In this document: positions 57,349-64,000 of the stretch, one piece after another
Numbering within the stretch: position 1 is the stretch's first letter
Layout of the letters: every line of letters begins with the position of its first letter
Assembly (NCBI RefSeq): GCF_035934735.1
Contig: NZ_CP142396.1
Coordinates: 682,001 to 746,000 of the forward strand
Reading direction: 5' to 3'
DNA from: Sedimentibacter sp. MB31-C6
GTDB taxonomy: Bacteria; Bacillota; Clostridia; Tissierellales; Sedimentibacteraceae
Length of the DNA stretch: 64,000 nucleotides
Notes under the pieces: model-generated
The model's input: the letters and a program-made list of their open reading frames with translations, nothing else
Databases searched by the model: none
What the model was told of the DNA's origin: nothing
Translations under genes and position numbers: made by a program

Positions 57349-58959
57349 TTAATCTTCTACAATTAAATCTTTATCTACAATTGCTATATCTGGATTATCA
57401 ACTACATCGTATTCCTTAGATTTAATTAACATTTTTATTGTACAAAATACCATTAATGCTACTACAAACAATAATGGAAAGGCACTAACTATTGCCAATT
57501 GTTTAGTTGCATCTATACCACTTACTTCTCCCACTGTTCCTGCAGTCGCTATGTTAACAAAAGCTAAAGATGACATTACTAAACCCCAAAACATTTTAAT
57601 TTTTTTAGGTGGTTCTTCAGAAGAACTCTTATTAGAATTTATGGAAAGTGAAGAAACCGTAGTGGTCATCGAGTCTGCTAATGTTACTACTGATAAAAAT
57701 GCTGTTATCATAAATAAAGCGCTTAAAAATTTACTTAATGGAAAATTCTCAAAGAATGCAAATACAGATACTTCTAAACCTCCTGATTGAATTTGTTCCC
57801 ATATTCCGCCACCATTCATTTCCAAGAATATTGATTCTGAACCAAAAACCCCGAACCAAATTATACCAAATATTCCTGGCAATAAGAAGTTATATAAAGT
57901 AAACTCCTTTAATGTTCTTCCAACTGCTATTTTAGCTAAGAACATTCCTATAAGAGGTGTATAAGCTATCATAAAGCTCCAATAGTTAATTGTCCACCAT
58001 ATAGGCCATTTATCTCCTTCGAATGTCCCTAAATATGTCGATTGTGTAAAATAGTTATCCAAATGAAACCCAAAAGACTCTGTTAACATATTAAGTATGT
58101 ACTTAGTATTACCGAATATCAATATGAAAATCATCAATCCTATGTATATTTTAGCATTTTTATCTGATAAAAATTTTACTCCCCTATTGATACCTGTATA
58201 ACTGGATATAATAAATGTAACTACTATTGTAAGTAATATTACTCCCCATACTATTGTTGTTGGTTCTATTCCAAATAGTAAATTCATTCCACTTCCTAAT
58301 TGCATAGATGCAACTCCTAATGATGCAGAAACACCTCCAGCTAAACCAAACAGACAAAGAATATCAACAATATCACCTGCTACACCATTTACTCTCTTTC
58401 CTAGTACAGGATAAAGACTTGATGATACACGATATGGAAGTTTCATATTATAAACAGCATATCCTATACCTATACCTGCTACACAATAAAATGCATATAA
58501 TGCTGGTCCCCAGTGTAAATAGCATGTACTTAATGAATATAATGCACCTTCTTTACTCATTGGGTCATATCCAAAACCAGGGATTGGAGACATTAAATGT
58601 GTTAAAGGTTCTGCAATACCCCAAAAAACAATACCAGTTGCAATACCGCCACATAAAGATATAACAAACCAACTCCATTTACTCATTATAGGTTTTGCAT
58701 CTTTTCCACCTAATTTAATGTTGCCATATTTCTTTGAAAACATCATCCAAATACATATAGCCATCATTGATAAAGCAACTAAATCGTATAGCCATCCAAA
58801 CCACTCTCCAGCAAAATTAACTATTGCACTTTCTGCTGAAGCAAATGATGCAGGTGACACAATTCCTAGAACTATTATGGCTGCATATATAATTACCATA
58901 GGGATAAAAACTATCTTTCTAACGTCCACCTTCTCTAGACTTTTAGCTTTACTGTTCAT
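57349..58959 (-). CDS. BCCT family betaine/carnitine/choline transporter
   Basis: A 536-residue membrane protein with 12 spans. The family signature is complete: the segment KWSWFVISLCGGIATGIVFWGIAEP, with its Trp-rich substrate box, and later WTINYWSFMIAYTPLIGMFLAKIAVGR. BCCT carriers import or exchange trimethylammonium compounds such as glycine betaine, carnitine or choline. There are no long charged termini of the osmosensory kind, which favours a catabolic or exchanger role. It is 114 bases downstream of the lyase gene, with no terminator seen between, so a shared operon is likely. AAGGAGG precedes the start. Confidence 0.93.
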   Translation of the reverse strand: MNSKAKSLEKVDVRKIVFIPMVIIYAAIIVLGIVSPASFASAESAIVNFAGEWFGWLYDLVALSMMAICIWMMFSKKYGNIKLGGKDAKPIMSKWSWFVISLCGGIATGIVFWGIAEPLTHLMSPIPGFGYDPMSKEGALYSLSTCYLHWGPALYAFYCVAGIGIGYAVYNMKLPYRVSSSLYPVLGKRVNGVAGDIVDILCLFGLAGGVSASLGVASMQLGSGMNLLFGIEPTTIVWGVILLTIVVTFIISSYTGINRGVKFLSDKNAKIYIGLMIFILIFGNTKYILNMLTESFGFHLDNYFTQSTYLGTFEGDKWPIWWTINYWSFMIAYTPLIGMFLAKIAVGRTLKEFTLYNFLLPGIFGIIWFGVFGSESIFLEMNGGGIWEQIQSGGLEVSVFAFFENFPLSKFLSALFMITAFLSVVTLADSMTTTVSSLSINSNKSSSEEPPKKIKMFWGLVMSSLAFVNIATAGTVGEVSGIDATKQLAIVSAFPLLFVVALMVFCTIKMLIKSKEYDVVDNPDIAIVDKDLIVED

Positions 58960-59073
58960 TTAAATCCTCCTTGTACTATTATTTAATAAATTCAAAATAA
59001 TTATAATTTATAATCGTCAAAAAATAGTCAAATAATATCGTTTTCATTTTGCTATATTATTAATTCTCCATTA

Positions 59074-60567
59074 TTAAAACAATAGTTTTTTTGACTTAAT
59101 TATTTCATATGCTTTTTTAATATCTATACTTAAATTTCTATCCTCGTCCAAAAAAGGTATATCGTTTCTAATTATCCTATATGCCTCTTTTGTAACCTTT
59201 CCCATTCTAATATTTCCTCTCAAATCAACAGCTTGAGCGGCATGAATGGCTTCTATACCTAAAATATATCTTATATTATCAATTATTTTCCTCACCTTAT
59301 CAGCTGCCAAAGGAGCATTACTAGCATGATCTTCTATATTGCCTGCTAATGAATATTGGTCTATAGATGATGGATTTGCTAACATCCTATTTTCAGCATC
59401 TAAATATGCAAATGGTTTTTGAATAGTTCCATATGCAATTGTTTTTGCTTCATTTGGAGTTAAAAACCTCGTAAGTTTCGTGAATGAAGGATCAGATAAT
59501 TTGATCATCCTATTACATGATAATTTTGATAGATGACATAAGGCAATTCCTAACATTTCAACACCTAGTACTAAGGATGTTATTTCAAAGTTTGCACTTA
59601 CAGATACTCTTTTTTCATCAGCTACTATACATGGATTGTCATCAGTAACATTAATTAAAACAGCTAATTTTTCTTTAATATAATCTAATGCATCATAAAC
59701 TGCTCCATTAACAGCAAACGAACACCTAAAGCTTAATGAATCTTGTAATGCTCTATCTTTATGAGGTTCATATAAATAACTACCCGTTAAATATTCCCTG
59801 CATTTTTTTGCACACTTAATTTGTCCTTTTAACTTTCTAAGATTATTTACACTCTCATCTAAAGATTGTACAACACCATTAAGACCCTCCATACCTAAAC
59901 AATAGATGATATTTGACATTTCTACCAATTCTTCTGTTTCTTTAACAAGCATCCCTATAAAAGCTTCACTCTGAGCATTTGAAGAAACTATACTTAATCC
60001 ATCTTTAGGCCCTAATACAGCTGGATACATCCCTTCTATTAACATAGCATCCTTTGAATTTATTATTTTTCCTTTATAACTTACTTCTCCCTCACCTATT
60101 ATTGATAAGCCTATATGAGACATAGTTGTAATATCACCTTCACCAATAGACCCTCTTCTTGGTACCCTAGGATGTATACCTTTATTTAAGAAGTCTTTAT
60201 AATGTTCTAAGATTTCTATTGAAACACCTGATGAACCACATAATGCTGTGTTTAATCTTATTAACATCATAGCTCGAACTTCTTCATCTGTACTATATGG
60301 TTCTACTCCTAGACTATGACTGTTTAAAAGATTTCTGTTATATGTTTCAAAAAAATCTACATCAAACTCCTTATCCTTATTCCAGCCAACGCCTCTGTTT
60401 AAACCATACACAGCTTCTCCCTTAGCTGCTAAATCAAAAAGTATTTGTCTGGCCTTTTTGGCTTTTTCTAATGCTTTTTCATCAATTTCAACTTGCCTGT
60501 TATTATATGCAACATCATATACATCATCAAGGCATAAGTCTATACCGTTTAAAATTAATTTTTCCAT
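59074..60567 (-). CDS. Histidine/aromatic ammonia-lyase homologue lacking the MIO tripeptide; candidate betaine (ergothionase-type) lyase
   Basis: A 497-residue protein with the HAL/PAL fold: VYGLNRGVGW (Tyr 54 at the HAL Tyr-53 position), RLNTALCGSSGVS, LQDSLSFRCSFAVNGA and GNIEDHASNAPLAADK. In true ammonia-lyases GSxG-Ala-Ser-Gly-D forms the MIO electrophile. Here residues 139-145 are GSIG-Glu-Gly-D (E143, G144), one residue short, so MIO cannot form. From memory, ergothionase is an MIO-less lyase of this fold that removes trimethylamine, a good leaving group, from ergothioneine. The neighbouring BCCT gene supports such a betaine substrate. The exact substrate is unproven. GAGAGGA precedes the start. 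Confidence 0.85.
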   Translation of the reverse strand: MEKLILNGIDLCLDDVYDVAYNNRQVEIDEKALEKAKKARQILFDLAAKGEAVYGLNRGVGWNKDKEFDVDFFETYNRNLLNSHSLGVEPYSTDEEVRAMMLIRLNTALCGSSGVSIEILEHYKDFLNKGIHPRVPRRGSIGEGDITTMSHIGLSIIGEGEVSYKGKIINSKDAMLIEGMYPAVLGPKDGLSIVSSNAQSEAFIGMLVKETEELVEMSNIIYCLGMEGLNGVVQSLDESVNNLRKLKGQIKCAKKCREYLTGSYLYEPHKDRALQDSLSFRCSFAVNGAVYDALDYIKEKLAVLINVTDDNPCIVADEKRVSVSANFEITSLVLGVEMLGIALCHLSKLSCNRMIKLSDPSFTKLTRFLTPNEAKTIAYGTIQKPFAYLDAENRMLANPSSIDQYSLAGNIEDHASNAPLAADKVRKIIDNIRYILGIEAIHAAQAVDLRGNIRMGKVTKEAYRIIRNDIPFLDEDRNLSIDIKKAYEIIKSKKLLF

Positions 60568-60593
60568 TTAAAATCCTCTCTATCTGTATTTAT

Positions 60594-62840
60594 TCACCTA
60601 GAAACATTTCTTATAATTACTTCTGGTGTTGCAGGATATGTAGTTATGTTAGTATCAAGTGCAAAATTAATTGCATTTAAGACTGCTGGACCTGGTGCAA
60701 CTGCTGCTATTTCACCTACACTTTTAGCCCCATAAGGTCCAAAAGGTTCATTTCCTTCAATAGTCATCACTCTTACTTCTGGCATTTGAGGTGCATTTAT
60801 CATATGGTATTTAGAAAAATTAGTTGATTTAACATAACCCTTTTCATCAATTTTAATTTCTTCTAAAAGAGCCATACCTAAACTAAATTGAGCTCCTCCT
60901 TGTATTTGACCTTCCACTAATAAAGGATTTATTGATTTTCCAATATCATGTACTGCTAATAAATCTATTATTTCAACTTGGCCAGTATATTTATCTACCT
61001 TTACTTCTGCAAAGCTTGCGGAGTAAGTTCCAGGATTCGCAGGAGATTCATATCTTTCAAATACTGATAGCGATTCATGATATTTTAATTCCAATTCAAT
61101 TGCAATTTCTCCATAAGTGTATTTTTCTTCTGAATTCTTTTCATAAATAATTCCATTTGTAGCTATCACATTTTCTTTTCTGCAATTTTTGAGCTTACAA
61201 AATGAATCTATAAGTTTTTTCTTAAGTTTTTCGCCAGCTGATTTAACAGCACCACCACATACAAAAGTTACTCTACTTGCTTGAGTTCCAGCAGAATCAT
61301 AAGGAGATGTAATAGTATCAACTTCTAAAACTCTAACTTTATCCATATTTATGTCAAGAGATTCTGAGGCTATTTGCTGCATTGTTGTTACGGTACCGCA
61401 TCCTTGCTCATGTATACCTATCTTTACTAGTACGCTACCATCTGAAAATATACTCATATCTACATTTGTAAAATCAGGATGAGCACCTTTGTATCCATTT
61501 CCATGAGCTCCACAAGCCATTCCTACTCCATAAGCATATCTATGGGTATTTTTATTTTTAATATTTTGACGCTTGTTTTTCCAATCAAATTTTTTCATTC
61601 CATTTATAACGCATTCGATGATTTTTGTATTTCCGATTTCAGTTCCACCAGTAGGATCCTTTGCTCCTTCTTTTACAAGATTTTTAAGTCTAAAATCACA
61701 AGGGTCCATTCCTATTTTTTTTGCAACATTATCGATATTTATCTCTGTTATTGCATGAGCTTGAGGTGAACCATATCCTCTGCATGGACCTCCAGGTATT
61801 GTGTTTGTATAGTACGTATTTCCTTCATAATACTGATCTTGAATGTCATATAATCTAAATAGTTTTTTGCCCAAAGCCATTGCAATAGCACTTGAATTAG
61901 TGTAATACGCTCCACCATCAATATCTACAACTATCTTTCTACCTAAAATTTTACCATCTGCTTTTATAGCTGTTTCAACACTTATTTCAGTTGCATTCCT
62001 ACTTCTTGTTCCTAATATAGCATCTTTTCTATCCATATAAAGCATTACTGGTCGATTGAGTTTATATGCTGCAAATGCACATATTGGTTCCAATACAGTA
62101 TGCCCTTTCCCTCCAAAAGAACCTCCCATAGCAGCCTTTATAACTCTCACTCTATTAAAAGGAATATTTAATACACTAGCTACATGGTATTGTATTTGAA
62201 AAGCTGTTTGGCATGGACTCCAAACAACCAAACTTCCCTGTTCATCTAATTCACTTAGACATATGTGTGGTTCTATTGCAGAATGATGTATTTTCGGCGT
62301 TTTCCCTGTATCTCTTATAATAAAATCTGCATCTTTAAATTTTTCTTCATAATTTCCGCAATTTATTTTTTTTGCAAAAGCTAAATTTGTATTTCCATTA
62401 ACAGTTGCTGCATTTTGTTTTGCTTGATTTATTCCTATTACACTATCAAGCTCTATATAAGCAATACTTAGTTTAGATATAGCTTTTTGTACAGCTTTTT
62501 TGCTTGTTCCTACTACTAATGCTATTCTATCTCCTACAAATCTTGCTTTATTACACAATAAGTACTCATCTTGAAATTCCTTTGCACCAGCATACCATTC
62601 ATGTGAATTATATAAAACATGTGGAACATCATCATATGTATATATTGCTTCAATACCTTCAACTTTTATAGCTTCGCTTTTATCAACTTCTATTTCAGCA
62701 TGAGGTTTTTTGCTTAAAACTAATTTTGCATAAAGCATGTTATGTCTTTTCATATCACATATAAATTTTGTTTTACCGGTAGCTTTATCATATGAATCTT
62801 CCCTAATAACACTTTTACCTACATATTTTAATTGTTCCAT
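60594..62840 (-). CDS. Molybdenum hydroxylase, large (molybdopterin) subunit, xanthine dehydrogenase family
   Basis: A 748-residue subunit. The molybdopterin sites are recognisable: KAAMGGSFGGKGH, GGPCRGYGSPQAHA, HEQGCGTV and, at the C-terminus, GAKSVGEIAAV, with the catalytic Glu. It hydroxylates an electron-poor carbon, usually in an N-heterocycle or aldehyde, using water. The FAD and 2Fe-2S subunits are encoded immediately upstream. The lyase gene is 26 bases downstream, so an imidazole or similar ring product is a plausible substrate (inference). AAGGAG precedes the start. Confidence 0.93.
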   Translation of the reverse strand: MEQLKYVGKSVIREDSYDKATGKTKFICDMKRHNMLYAKLVLSKKPHAEIEVDKSEAIKVEGIEAIYTYDDVPHVLYNSHEWYAGAKEFQDEYLLCNKARFVGDRIALVVGTSKKAVQKAISKLSIAYIELDSVIGINQAKQNAATVNGNTNLAFAKKINCGNYEEKFKDADFIIRDTGKTPKIHHSAIEPHICLSELDEQGSLVVWSPCQTAFQIQYHVASVLNIPFNRVRVIKAAMGGSFGGKGHTVLEPICAFAAYKLNRPVMLYMDRKDAILGTRSRNATEISVETAIKADGKILGRKIVVDIDGGAYYTNSSAIAMALGKKLFRLYDIQDQYYEGNTYYTNTIPGGPCRGYGSPQAHAITEINIDNVAKKIGMDPCDFRLKNLVKEGAKDPTGGTEIGNTKIIECVINGMKKFDWKNKRQNIKNKNTHRYAYGVGMACGAHGNGYKGAHPDFTNVDMSIFSDGSVLVKIGIHEQGCGTVTTMQQIASESLDINMDKVRVLEVDTITSPYDSAGTQASRVTFVCGGAVKSAGEKLKKKLIDSFCKLKNCRKENVIATNGIIYEKNSEEKYTYGEIAIELELKYHESLSVFERYESPANPGTYSASFAEVKVDKYTGQVEIIDLLAVHDIGKSINPLLVEGQIQGGAQFSLGMALLEEIKIDEKGYVKSTNFSKYHMINAPQMPEVRVMTIEGNEPFGPYGAKSVGEIAAVAPGPAVLNAINFALDTNITTYPATPEVIIRNVSR

Positions 62841-62842
62841 AT

Positions 62843-63688
62843 TTATCTCCTTAATTTATTCAATATATCCTCTATTAATCCTTCTGCTGCTATCTTTTTA
62901 TAATGTTTTGAACTTCTATTTGGTATAGCATTCTCTATTTGCATATAAACTGCTTCATGTAAATCTTCATGATTAATATTTTTAATATTTTTATATAATA
63001 ATTTTTCCTCAATGAGTTTTGCTTTAATCGGTTTAGGTCCTACAGCCCCAAGATATATATTTGCTTTATATATGATTAAGTCTTCACTGATATTAATTTT
63101 AGCGCAACAATTAATTTTTGATATAGTAACTGCCTTCCTTGACCCAACTTTTGAAAAGGCAGATTTAGAAGAGGATTTTTTTATTATTATTTTAGTTATT
63201 ACTTCATCGGAATCTAAATTGTTCTTTTCTAATCCCTCGACTACGTTTTCAATTTTATCAATTCTTCTTTTACCAGTAGAATTAATTATTTCAATGTTTG
63301 CATCGTAAGAAAACAGCACAGGTAAAGTATCTCCACTTTGCGATGCATTCGCAACGTTTCCTCCTATTGTAGCTCTATTTCTTATTTGTTGAGAACCTAA
63401 GTTATAAGCAGAATCAACTAGCGCAGGTATATATTTATTAATTAAAAGGCTATTTTCCAATTGTGTCATTGTTACACAGGACCCTATTGTTATCTCATTC
63501 TCTGTTTCATTTATTTTTTTAAATTCCTCTAATTTTGTTATATCAATTATGTTATAATCGTAAATTTCTTTTTTATTAAAGTGAATGATTAAATCAGTCC
63601 CCCCACTAATTACAAATGTATTGTTATCTTTTTGCTTTAAAGCTTCACATAATTCTTCAATTGTTTTTGGAGATACAAAGTTTTTCAT
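62843..63688 (-). CDS. Molybdenum hydroxylase, FAD-binding subunit
   Basis: A 281-residue CO-dehydrogenase-type flavoprotein subunit. N-terminal FAD segment VISGGTDLIIHF and the second FAD motif ATIGGNVANASQSGDTLPVL are intact, and the C-terminal CCAKI and YLGAVGPKPIKAKLIEE part is typical. It transfers electrons from the Mo site via 2Fe-2S clusters to NAD or another acceptor. It ends two bases before the large-subunit start and starts four bases after the small-subunit stop. Confidence 0.94.
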   Translation of the reverse strand: MKNFVSPKTIEELCEALKQKDNNTFVISGGTDLIIHFNKKEIYDYNIIDITKLEEFKKINETENEITIGSCVTMTQLENSLLINKYIPALVDSAYNLGSQQIRNRATIGGNVANASQSGDTLPVLFSYDANIEIINSTGKRRIDKIENVVEGLEKNNLDSDEVITKIIIKKSSSKSAFSKVGSRKAVTISKINCCAKINISEDLIIYKANIYLGAVGPKPIKAKLIEEKLLYKNIKNINHEDLHEAVYMQIENAIPNRSSKHYKKIAAEGLIEDILNKLRR

Positions 63689-63691
63689 ATG

Positions 63692-64000
63692 CTACACCTC
63701 TTTTACAGTAATGTCTTTTACTGCTTTCACAATTTTGTTATATCCTGTACACCTACAAAGATTTCCTTCAATAGCTCTTTTAATTTCATCTTCTGTAGGA
63801 TTAGGATTTTTTAATAAAAGAGCTTTACATGATAAAATCATACCTGGAGTACAAAAACCGCATTGGATAGCTCCATTTTCTATAAATGATTTTTGTATTA
63901 CATCAAGTTCACCACTTTGTTCTAAACCCTCTATTGTTATAATTTCACATCCATCCACTTGCCCAGCAAGTATTGTGCAAGAAGTTACGGCTTCTTCATT
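63692..64000 (-). CDS. Molybdenum hydroxylase, 2Fe-2S subunit (cut by window end)
   Basis: The last ~102 codons of the iron-sulfur subunit. Visible are the Cys of the plant-type cluster (SCTILAGQ), the linker ITIEGL, CGFCTPGMILS and CRCTGYNKIV, which bind the second 2Fe-2S cluster. The N-terminal part with the first ferredoxin loop is outside the window. It is the first gene of the three-subunit set as read here, and further genes may lie upstream. Confidence 0.94.
   Translation of the reverse strand, partial: NEEAVTSCTILAGQVDGCEIITIEGLEQSGELDVIQKSFIENGAIQCGFCTPGMILSCKALLLKNPNPTEDEIKRAIEGNLCRCTGYNKIVKAVKDITVKEV

Follow-up and report, generated by a model that had tools for sequence, protein, structure and literature searches.

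Ergothioneine catabolism in anaerobic gut bacteria has recently been described as the action of an ergothionase and then of a xanthine-oxidase homologue by which the aromatic C-S bond is cleaved reductively (Feng et al. JACS 2025, as cited in PMC12771579, PNAS 2025), and a thiourocanate desulfhydrase that releases H2S has been ascribed to the same study (Feng et al., as cited in PMC13405746). As both papers cite Feng et al., we infer that the two statements concern the same enzyme. A second route, represented by the thiourocanate hydratase (NF058530) and thiohydantoin desulfurase (NF058529) families, shares the first enzyme and the intermediate with this pathway but differs in the second enzyme. 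The window analysed here, a stretch of 64,000 nucleotides from Sedimentibacter sp. MB31-C6 (NZ_CP142396.1, positions 682,001 to 746,000), ends in a cluster of genes for a carrier of the BCCT family, a lyase with the fold of histidine ammonia-lyase (HAL) and a three-subunit molybdenum enzyme. This cluster is very likely an anaerobic ergothioneine-degradation operon, which would import the betaine, eliminate trimethylamine, desulfurise the product to urocanate and deliver this to the histidine utilisation (Hut) pathway. An earlier note on this DNA held that the coupling of such a lyase with a molybdenum hydroxylase was not a described pathway, a statement which the work of Feng et al. has overtaken (PMC12771579, PMC13405746). 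The Hut, regulator and YqeB context reported below was observed here and may or may not feature in that work.

The open reading frame list and the domain scan place five genes, all on the minus strand, where the earlier note had reported them:

57349..58959, minus strand: BCCT-family transporter, probable ergothioneine (betaine) importer (PF02028, E 1.3e-130)
59074..60567, minus strand: lyase of the HAL fold without the methylidene-imidazolone (MIO) group, very probably an ergothionase, releasing trimethylamine (PF00221, E 6.1e-131)
60594..62840, minus strand: XdhA-like molybdopterin subunit, probable thiourocanate desulfhydrase (PF01315, PF02738, PF20256)
62843..63688, minus strand: XdhB-like FAD subunit (PF00941, PF03450)
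63692..64000, minus strand: XdhC-like [2Fe-2S] subunit, truncated by the window edge (PF01799)

The note had spoken of four kinds of gene running in one direction; the common direction is confirmed, and the kinds that it lists are three, represented by five genes. In the genome the whole xdhC-like gene extends to about 64153 (window coordinates), and its complete product matches PF00111 and PF01799 and contains both [2Fe-2S] cysteine motifs. Along the minus strand an upstream regulator is followed by the xdhC-like, xdhB-like, xdhA-like, lyase and BCCT genes. Because the gaps from the xdhC gene to the BCCT gene measure only 3, 2, 26 and 114 bases, these five genes are likely to form a single transcript. 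Promoter and terminator scans returned sites no more numerous than in shuffled sequence. The regulator, a BTAD/AAA/TPR protein of 962 amino acids encoded on the same strand just upstream of the xdhC gene and past the window edge, probably controls the cluster.

Judging from its sequence, the lyase is very probably an ergothionase. Its best match among solved structures is ergothionase 6s7j/6s7q (E 2.6e-224), which we take to be the Treponema denticola enzyme of Maurer et al. 2019, and the next is a histidine ammonia-lyase (1.4e-72). It shares 67.5% identity with 6s7j over 493 amino acids; both proteins are devoid of MIO and no difference relevant to function was found between them. The Ala-Ser-Gly triad that gives rise to MIO is replaced by Glu-Gly (GSIGEGD, against GSLGASGD in true HALs), as the earlier note had recognised. 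A quick tree of 100 lyase rows (no bootstrap, rows of fewer than 440 amino acids excluded) puts the window lyase and the ergothionase chain into a supported set of 29 rows of this lyase type, and the triad-bearing true HALs are separate. The grouping with MIO enzymes that would have spoken against the note's reading was thus not seen. Identification as an ordinary HutH was rejected, since the protein reaches 361.7 bits with TIGR01225 against a cut-off of 539.15 and the triad is absent; a separate MIO-bearing HutH is encoded elsewhere in the genome. The lyase of Sedimentibacter acidaminivorans is 85% identical to that of the window.

Other lyases without MIO were seen in the related loci. These were studied as 20 fetched neighbourhoods and as 79 distinct named loci, the latter taken from the best 80 of 155 matches to the lyase profile. 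A second MIO-less family, in which GSVGY-LSPEAH replaces GSLGASGDLAPLAH, is present in 4 of the 20 neighbourhoods and in 8 of the 79 named loci, whose nine rows form one fully supported branch of the lyase tree (loci noted for the family: L027:11973-13514, L028:10507, L029:11287, L031:4250, L073:13179-14681, L083:4590-6200, L108:3620-5176 and L141:12688-14241). Its members sometimes adjoin an ergothionase and a BCCT gene, and the two that were scanned come near HutH in score, below the equivalog cut-off. Moreover, tandem pairs of PF00221 genes stand beside the ergothionase cluster in L114 (15011-17844, Acidaminobacter hydrogenoformans) and L131 (8668-11463). The second gene of each pair is without MIO (GSTGL-SDLG) but keeps the other lyase motifs, and the first is without nearly all of them; the pairs resemble a lyase of two subunits, one of which has degenerated.

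The remaining three genes provide the molybdenum cofactor, FAD and 2Fe-2S architecture seen in the domain scans and cysteine motifs. Clade membership and gene context make this XdhABC enzyme a probable thiourocanate desulfhydrase. XdhA lies below the cut-off of all 13 NCBIfam models listed. An ordinary xanthine dehydrogenase, like any other named enzyme of that family, was discarded on these grounds, NF043082 being the highest-scoring model with 552.7 against a cut-off of 780, and so was 4-hydroxybenzoyl-CoA reductase proper (402.8 against 994.55 for TIGR03194). The alpha subunit of the latter enzyme (1rm6), a reductive member of the family, is nevertheless the best solved match of the window XdhA, which remains far under the family cut-off. 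Members of the 4-hydroxybenzoyl-CoA reductase family have an extra [4Fe-4S] cluster in the FAD subunit. The cysteine pattern of the window FAD subunit, with four cysteines in 281 amino acids, two of them adjacent, does not fit such a cluster, and the number of cysteines varies from 1 to 10 across 46 xdhB rows of the named loci.

In an XdhA tree of 67 rows (again quick and without bootstrap, with rows of fewer than 650 amino acids left out and L149 not in the tree) 46 lyase-linked rows, the window included, fall within a clade of 50 rows with an SH-aLRT value of 98. The four other rows come from G845 and G821, which have the lyase elsewhere in the genome, and from G813 and G824, whose genomes are 82% and 71% complete. 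Five residues (R301, H362, G403, V524 and N682) are invariant in all 50 clade rows and are found in no more than 3 of the 15 remaining rows, and position 353, beside a conserved Arg, is Cys in 40 of the 50. Two further XdhA-type genes of the window genome are both outside the clade. This clade unites the window XdhA with those that accompany an ergothionase in gut bacteria, C. symbiosum being one example; [Clostridium] symbiosum ATCC 14940 (L105) is among the linked loci, and Clostridium symbiosum is named among ergothionase-bearing organisms (PMC13405746). The enzyme of Feng et al. presumably belongs to this same clade.

More distant enzymes were also observed next to the lyase. Four Oscillospiraceae-type loci (L082, L085, L086 and L087) have an XdhA of 37-38% identity on the strand opposite to the lyase; it forms a sister group to the linked clade, with a support of 93 in the quick tree, and its function may be the same or different. 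In Peptoniphilus catoniae (L032, genome G863) the lyase adjoins a protein of 923 amino acids which matches both 2Fe-2S and molybdopterin subunits, is 29% identical to the window XdhA and represents a divergent fusion at the equivalent place; HutI and HutU are encoded nearby.

The cluster of lyase and XdhA is a real, conserved unit and not a product of chance. A clade XdhA is found near the lyase in 15 of the 20 fetched neighbourhoods and in 48 of the 79 named loci, where it was called by a six-frame check at no less than 44% identity to one of three clade members (percentages in the named loci refer to the nearest of several references and not to the window alone). Twelve other named loci have only a less similar XdhA and 19 none of useful length. 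In 47 of the 48 linked loci xdhA is on the strand of the lyase, in 32 it is no more than 300 bases away, and in 30 the regulator is matched. These loci comprise 42 from Bacillota and 6 from Synergistota. Thus the gene set proposed in the earlier note is conserved among relatives, as is its coupling of the lyase with an enzyme of the molybdenum hydroxylase family. Among 199 genomes of the order (lyase at E of 1e-120 or lower, close XdhA at 50% identity or more, two hits of 36% not counted) the lyase occurs in 14, a close XdhA in 15 and both in 13 (Fisher p 1.8e-17, a value not corrected for kinship and therefore overstating independence). The two genomes of the order with XdhA only are 82% and 71% complete. 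In wider samples the lyase was found in 6 of 391 genomes of the class and, at a laxer limit, in 4 of 398 of the phylum, the window genome being counted each time.

From these genes the following pathway can be proposed. The BCCT carrier would import ergothioneine, and the lyase, by the known ergothionase chemistry that its identity to 6s7j suggests, would convert it to 2-thiourocanate and trimethylamine. XdhABC, with electrons passing via FAD and the two [2Fe-2S] clusters, would then reductively take the ring sulfur and yield urocanate and H2S. Finally urocanate would be degraded to glutamate by the urocanase, imidazolonepropionase, glutamate formiminotransferase and cyclodeaminase of the Hut pathway, encoded elsewhere in the genome. 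The betaine import and trimethylamine elimination of the earlier note are thereby retained as its probable first steps, and the ring hydroxylation that it placed second gives way to reductive desulfurisation, in view of the published pathway (PMC12771579, PMC13405746) and of linked urocanase genes.

The fate of urocanate can be followed in the genomes. In the window genome the genes for urocanase (HutU), formiminotransferase, imidazolonepropionase (HutI, assigned by 76% identity to a TIGR01224 member) and cyclodeaminase form one run, some 3 kb from which lies a regulator 36% identical to the BTAD regulator of the cluster. Urocanase is present in every XdhA carrier of the order (15 of 15), compared with 129 of the 199 genomes overall. 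Moreover its gene comes immediately after xdhA in G821. In Thermosediminibacter it is a neighbour of xdhABC, and its product scores 784 bits with TIGR01228 (cut-off 375). These linked genes fit urocanate as the product.

An oxidative second step, in which the molybdenum enzyme would hydroxylate the imidazole ring of (thio)urocanate to a thiohydantoin-type acid, is the least unlikely of the alternatives and was nevertheless rejected as improbable. It would agree with the behaviour of most enzymes of the xanthine-oxidase family (PMC12771579), and the window XdhA has its top NCBIfam score, although below the cut-off, with a xanthine dehydrogenase. The protein also retains the GAKSVGE motif, which holds the active-site Glu of the family. 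However, reductive C-S cleavage by a xanthine-oxidase homologue is published for this very pathway (PMC12771579), the best solved match is a reductive enzyme and the linked urocanase genes point to urocanate. Searches of the open literature, with most subscription papers outside their scope, gave no paper joining thiourocanate to molybdenum, or xanthine dehydrogenase to ergothioneine or trimethylamine in gut bacteria, and the available parts of PMC13101508, PMC12310921 and PMC9732360 contain nothing on the second step.

The hydratase and desulfurase route was encountered in other named loci. A thiohydantoin-desulfurase-like gene is present in 11 of the 79 (ten from Bacilli and one from a betaproteobacterium), and 8 of these 11 also have a thiourocanate-hydratase-like (urocanase-like) gene in reach. 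Of the eight hydratases, the four that were scanned all exceed the NF058530 cut-off, and the one desulfurase scanned exceeds that of NF058529. No XdhA match was obtained in the 11 desulfurase loci, and neither a hydratase nor a desulfurase gene in the 48 XdhA-linked loci. In these loci the two kinds of partner never occur together, so that one type of lyase is combined with either of two routes for handling the sulfur.

Several observations weigh against an ergothioneine-degradation operon as described above. Urocanase is found within only 5 of the 48 linked loci. The BCCT carriers of the 79 named loci form two groups, of 29 rows (window included) and 23 rows, which are only about 31% alike, so that the specificity of the carrier is not supported by orthology. 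P. catoniae has the lyase next to an XdhA-like protein of only 29% identity. In addition, 20 of the 79 named loci (12 with a less similar XdhA and 8 with none) have neither a clade XdhA nor hydratase or desulfurase genes in reach; the lyase is therefore also found in other settings or with unlinked partners.

Some of these loci bear on a further alternative, a little less probable than ring hydroxylation, according to which hercynine or another trimethylated histidine is the substrate of the lyase and is turned directly into urocanate, with the molybdenum enzyme having another substrate and being linked for another reason. The 8 loci just mentioned, which hold no XdhA of useful length, hydratase or desulfurase, would be compatible with it, and so would G845, where the lyase is beside Hut genes and the clade XdhA on another contig. 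Yet G845 still encodes that XdhA, and co-occurrence in the order is tight (13 of 14 lyase genomes and 13 of 15 XdhA genomes). With hercynine as the main substrate urocanate would arise directly and no second enzyme would be needed, which makes ergothioneine the likelier candidate. It is very improbable that the cluster desulfurises some other thio-imidazole betaine, for instance S-methyl or oxidised ergothioneine, in place of free ergothioneine: NCBIfam does have separate S-methyl-thiourocanate hydratase and S-methyl-thiohydantoin desulfurase families, so that such substrates exist in related pathways, but the solved lyase nearest to that of the window bears the simple label ergothionase.

With reductive desulfurisation of thiourocanate as the preferred reading, the question arises of whether the desulfhydrase of the window's lineage is a selenium-dependent molybdenum hydroxylase, an idea that we regard as tentative and rather doubtful. 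YqeB (TIGR03309) has been proposed as a marker of such enzymes (PMC2276186). In C. difficile the deletion of yqeB resembles the loss of selD in purine use and that of yqeC is without clear effect, and clostridial selenium-dependent xanthine dehydrogenases are described as reversible and able to reduce urate (PMC11448449). Like organisms with selenium-dependent molybdenum hydroxylases, the window genome encodes YqeB, a YqeC-like protein and SelD. All 15 XdhA carriers of the order have YqeB, and among the remaining genomes of the order that encode a MoCoBD enzyme 66 of 91 do so (one-sided p 0.013). YqeB is also present in four carriers from outside the order, which were recognised as such by an identity of 44-50%. 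It was not matched in P. catoniae, which has the lyase and is without a clade XdhA. SelD was matched in all 20 genomes checked, in one only below the cut-off. In G805, G813, G821, Anaerovirgula and Thermosediminibacter at most a few genes separate yqeB from the xdhA of the clade or from the associated lyase. Moreover, Peptoniphilus mikwangii (G923) has a maturation set of the YqeB-MocA-YqeC-XdhC type and a single MoCoBD match in its genome, which is so the linked XdhA.

A further sample of 50 genomes from the named loci comprised 39 carriers, L149 being counted as one, and 11 lyase genomes without a linked XdhA, one of which (L137) has the tail of an xdhA of 49.5% identity at its edge. In this sample YqeB is above the cut-off in 23 of the 39 carriers and in 6 of the 11 others, and the marker does not separate the groups. 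The 16 carriers below the cut-off, which include C. symbiosum, Acidaminococcus massiliensis, Clostridium mobile and three related Clostridium records, rule out selenium dependence of the whole XdhA clade. Selenium may thus be used in some lineages and is not a trait of the whole family.

The BCCT carrier of the window matches PF02028 and scores 376.1 with the glycine-betaine equivalog NF047988, below its cut-off of 650. Of the 48 named loci that have a linked XdhA, 43 also contain a BCCT gene. The two sequence groups described above suggest that carriers of two separate branches were drawn into such clusters. Beside the cluster, some loci encode chemoreceptors in which an MCP signalling domain precedes an OpuAC betaine-binding domain at the C-terminus (L041:14105-16078, L043:13645, L106:11584-13545, L111:11584-13545 and L146:4281-6260). 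The domains were scanned in L041, L106 and L146, and L043 and L111 were assigned by similarity. Because the two receptors checked for hydropathy have hydrophobic stretches near the N-terminus only, the OpuAC domain may face the cytoplasm.

Upstream of the regulator there is an aldehyde:ferredoxin oxidoreductase-type gene (L003:11724-14296) together with a gene for a polyferredoxin of 132 amino acids, and a link of the former to electron supply is possible. Its product is 82% identical to the S. acidaminivorans counterpart, and this other Sedimentibacter locus is the only one among the 20 neighbourhoods compared with a close match.

The cluster can be regarded as a further example of a published pathway, coherent and largely explained. 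It extends the gut pathway that appeared recently to Sedimentibacter and, as the linked loci suggest, to other Clostridia, Tissierellia and Synergistota. One lyase appears with two second steps for handling the sulfur: those anaerobes have a molybdenum enzyme, probably reductive, and Bacilli a hydratase with a desulfurase. The pattern of YqeB makes the selenium question directly testable and, if selenium dependence were true, a selenium-using enzyme would remove sulfur from a dietary antioxidant. Moreover, the organisms to which the linked loci belong may set free trimethylamine and H2S when they degrade ergothioneine.

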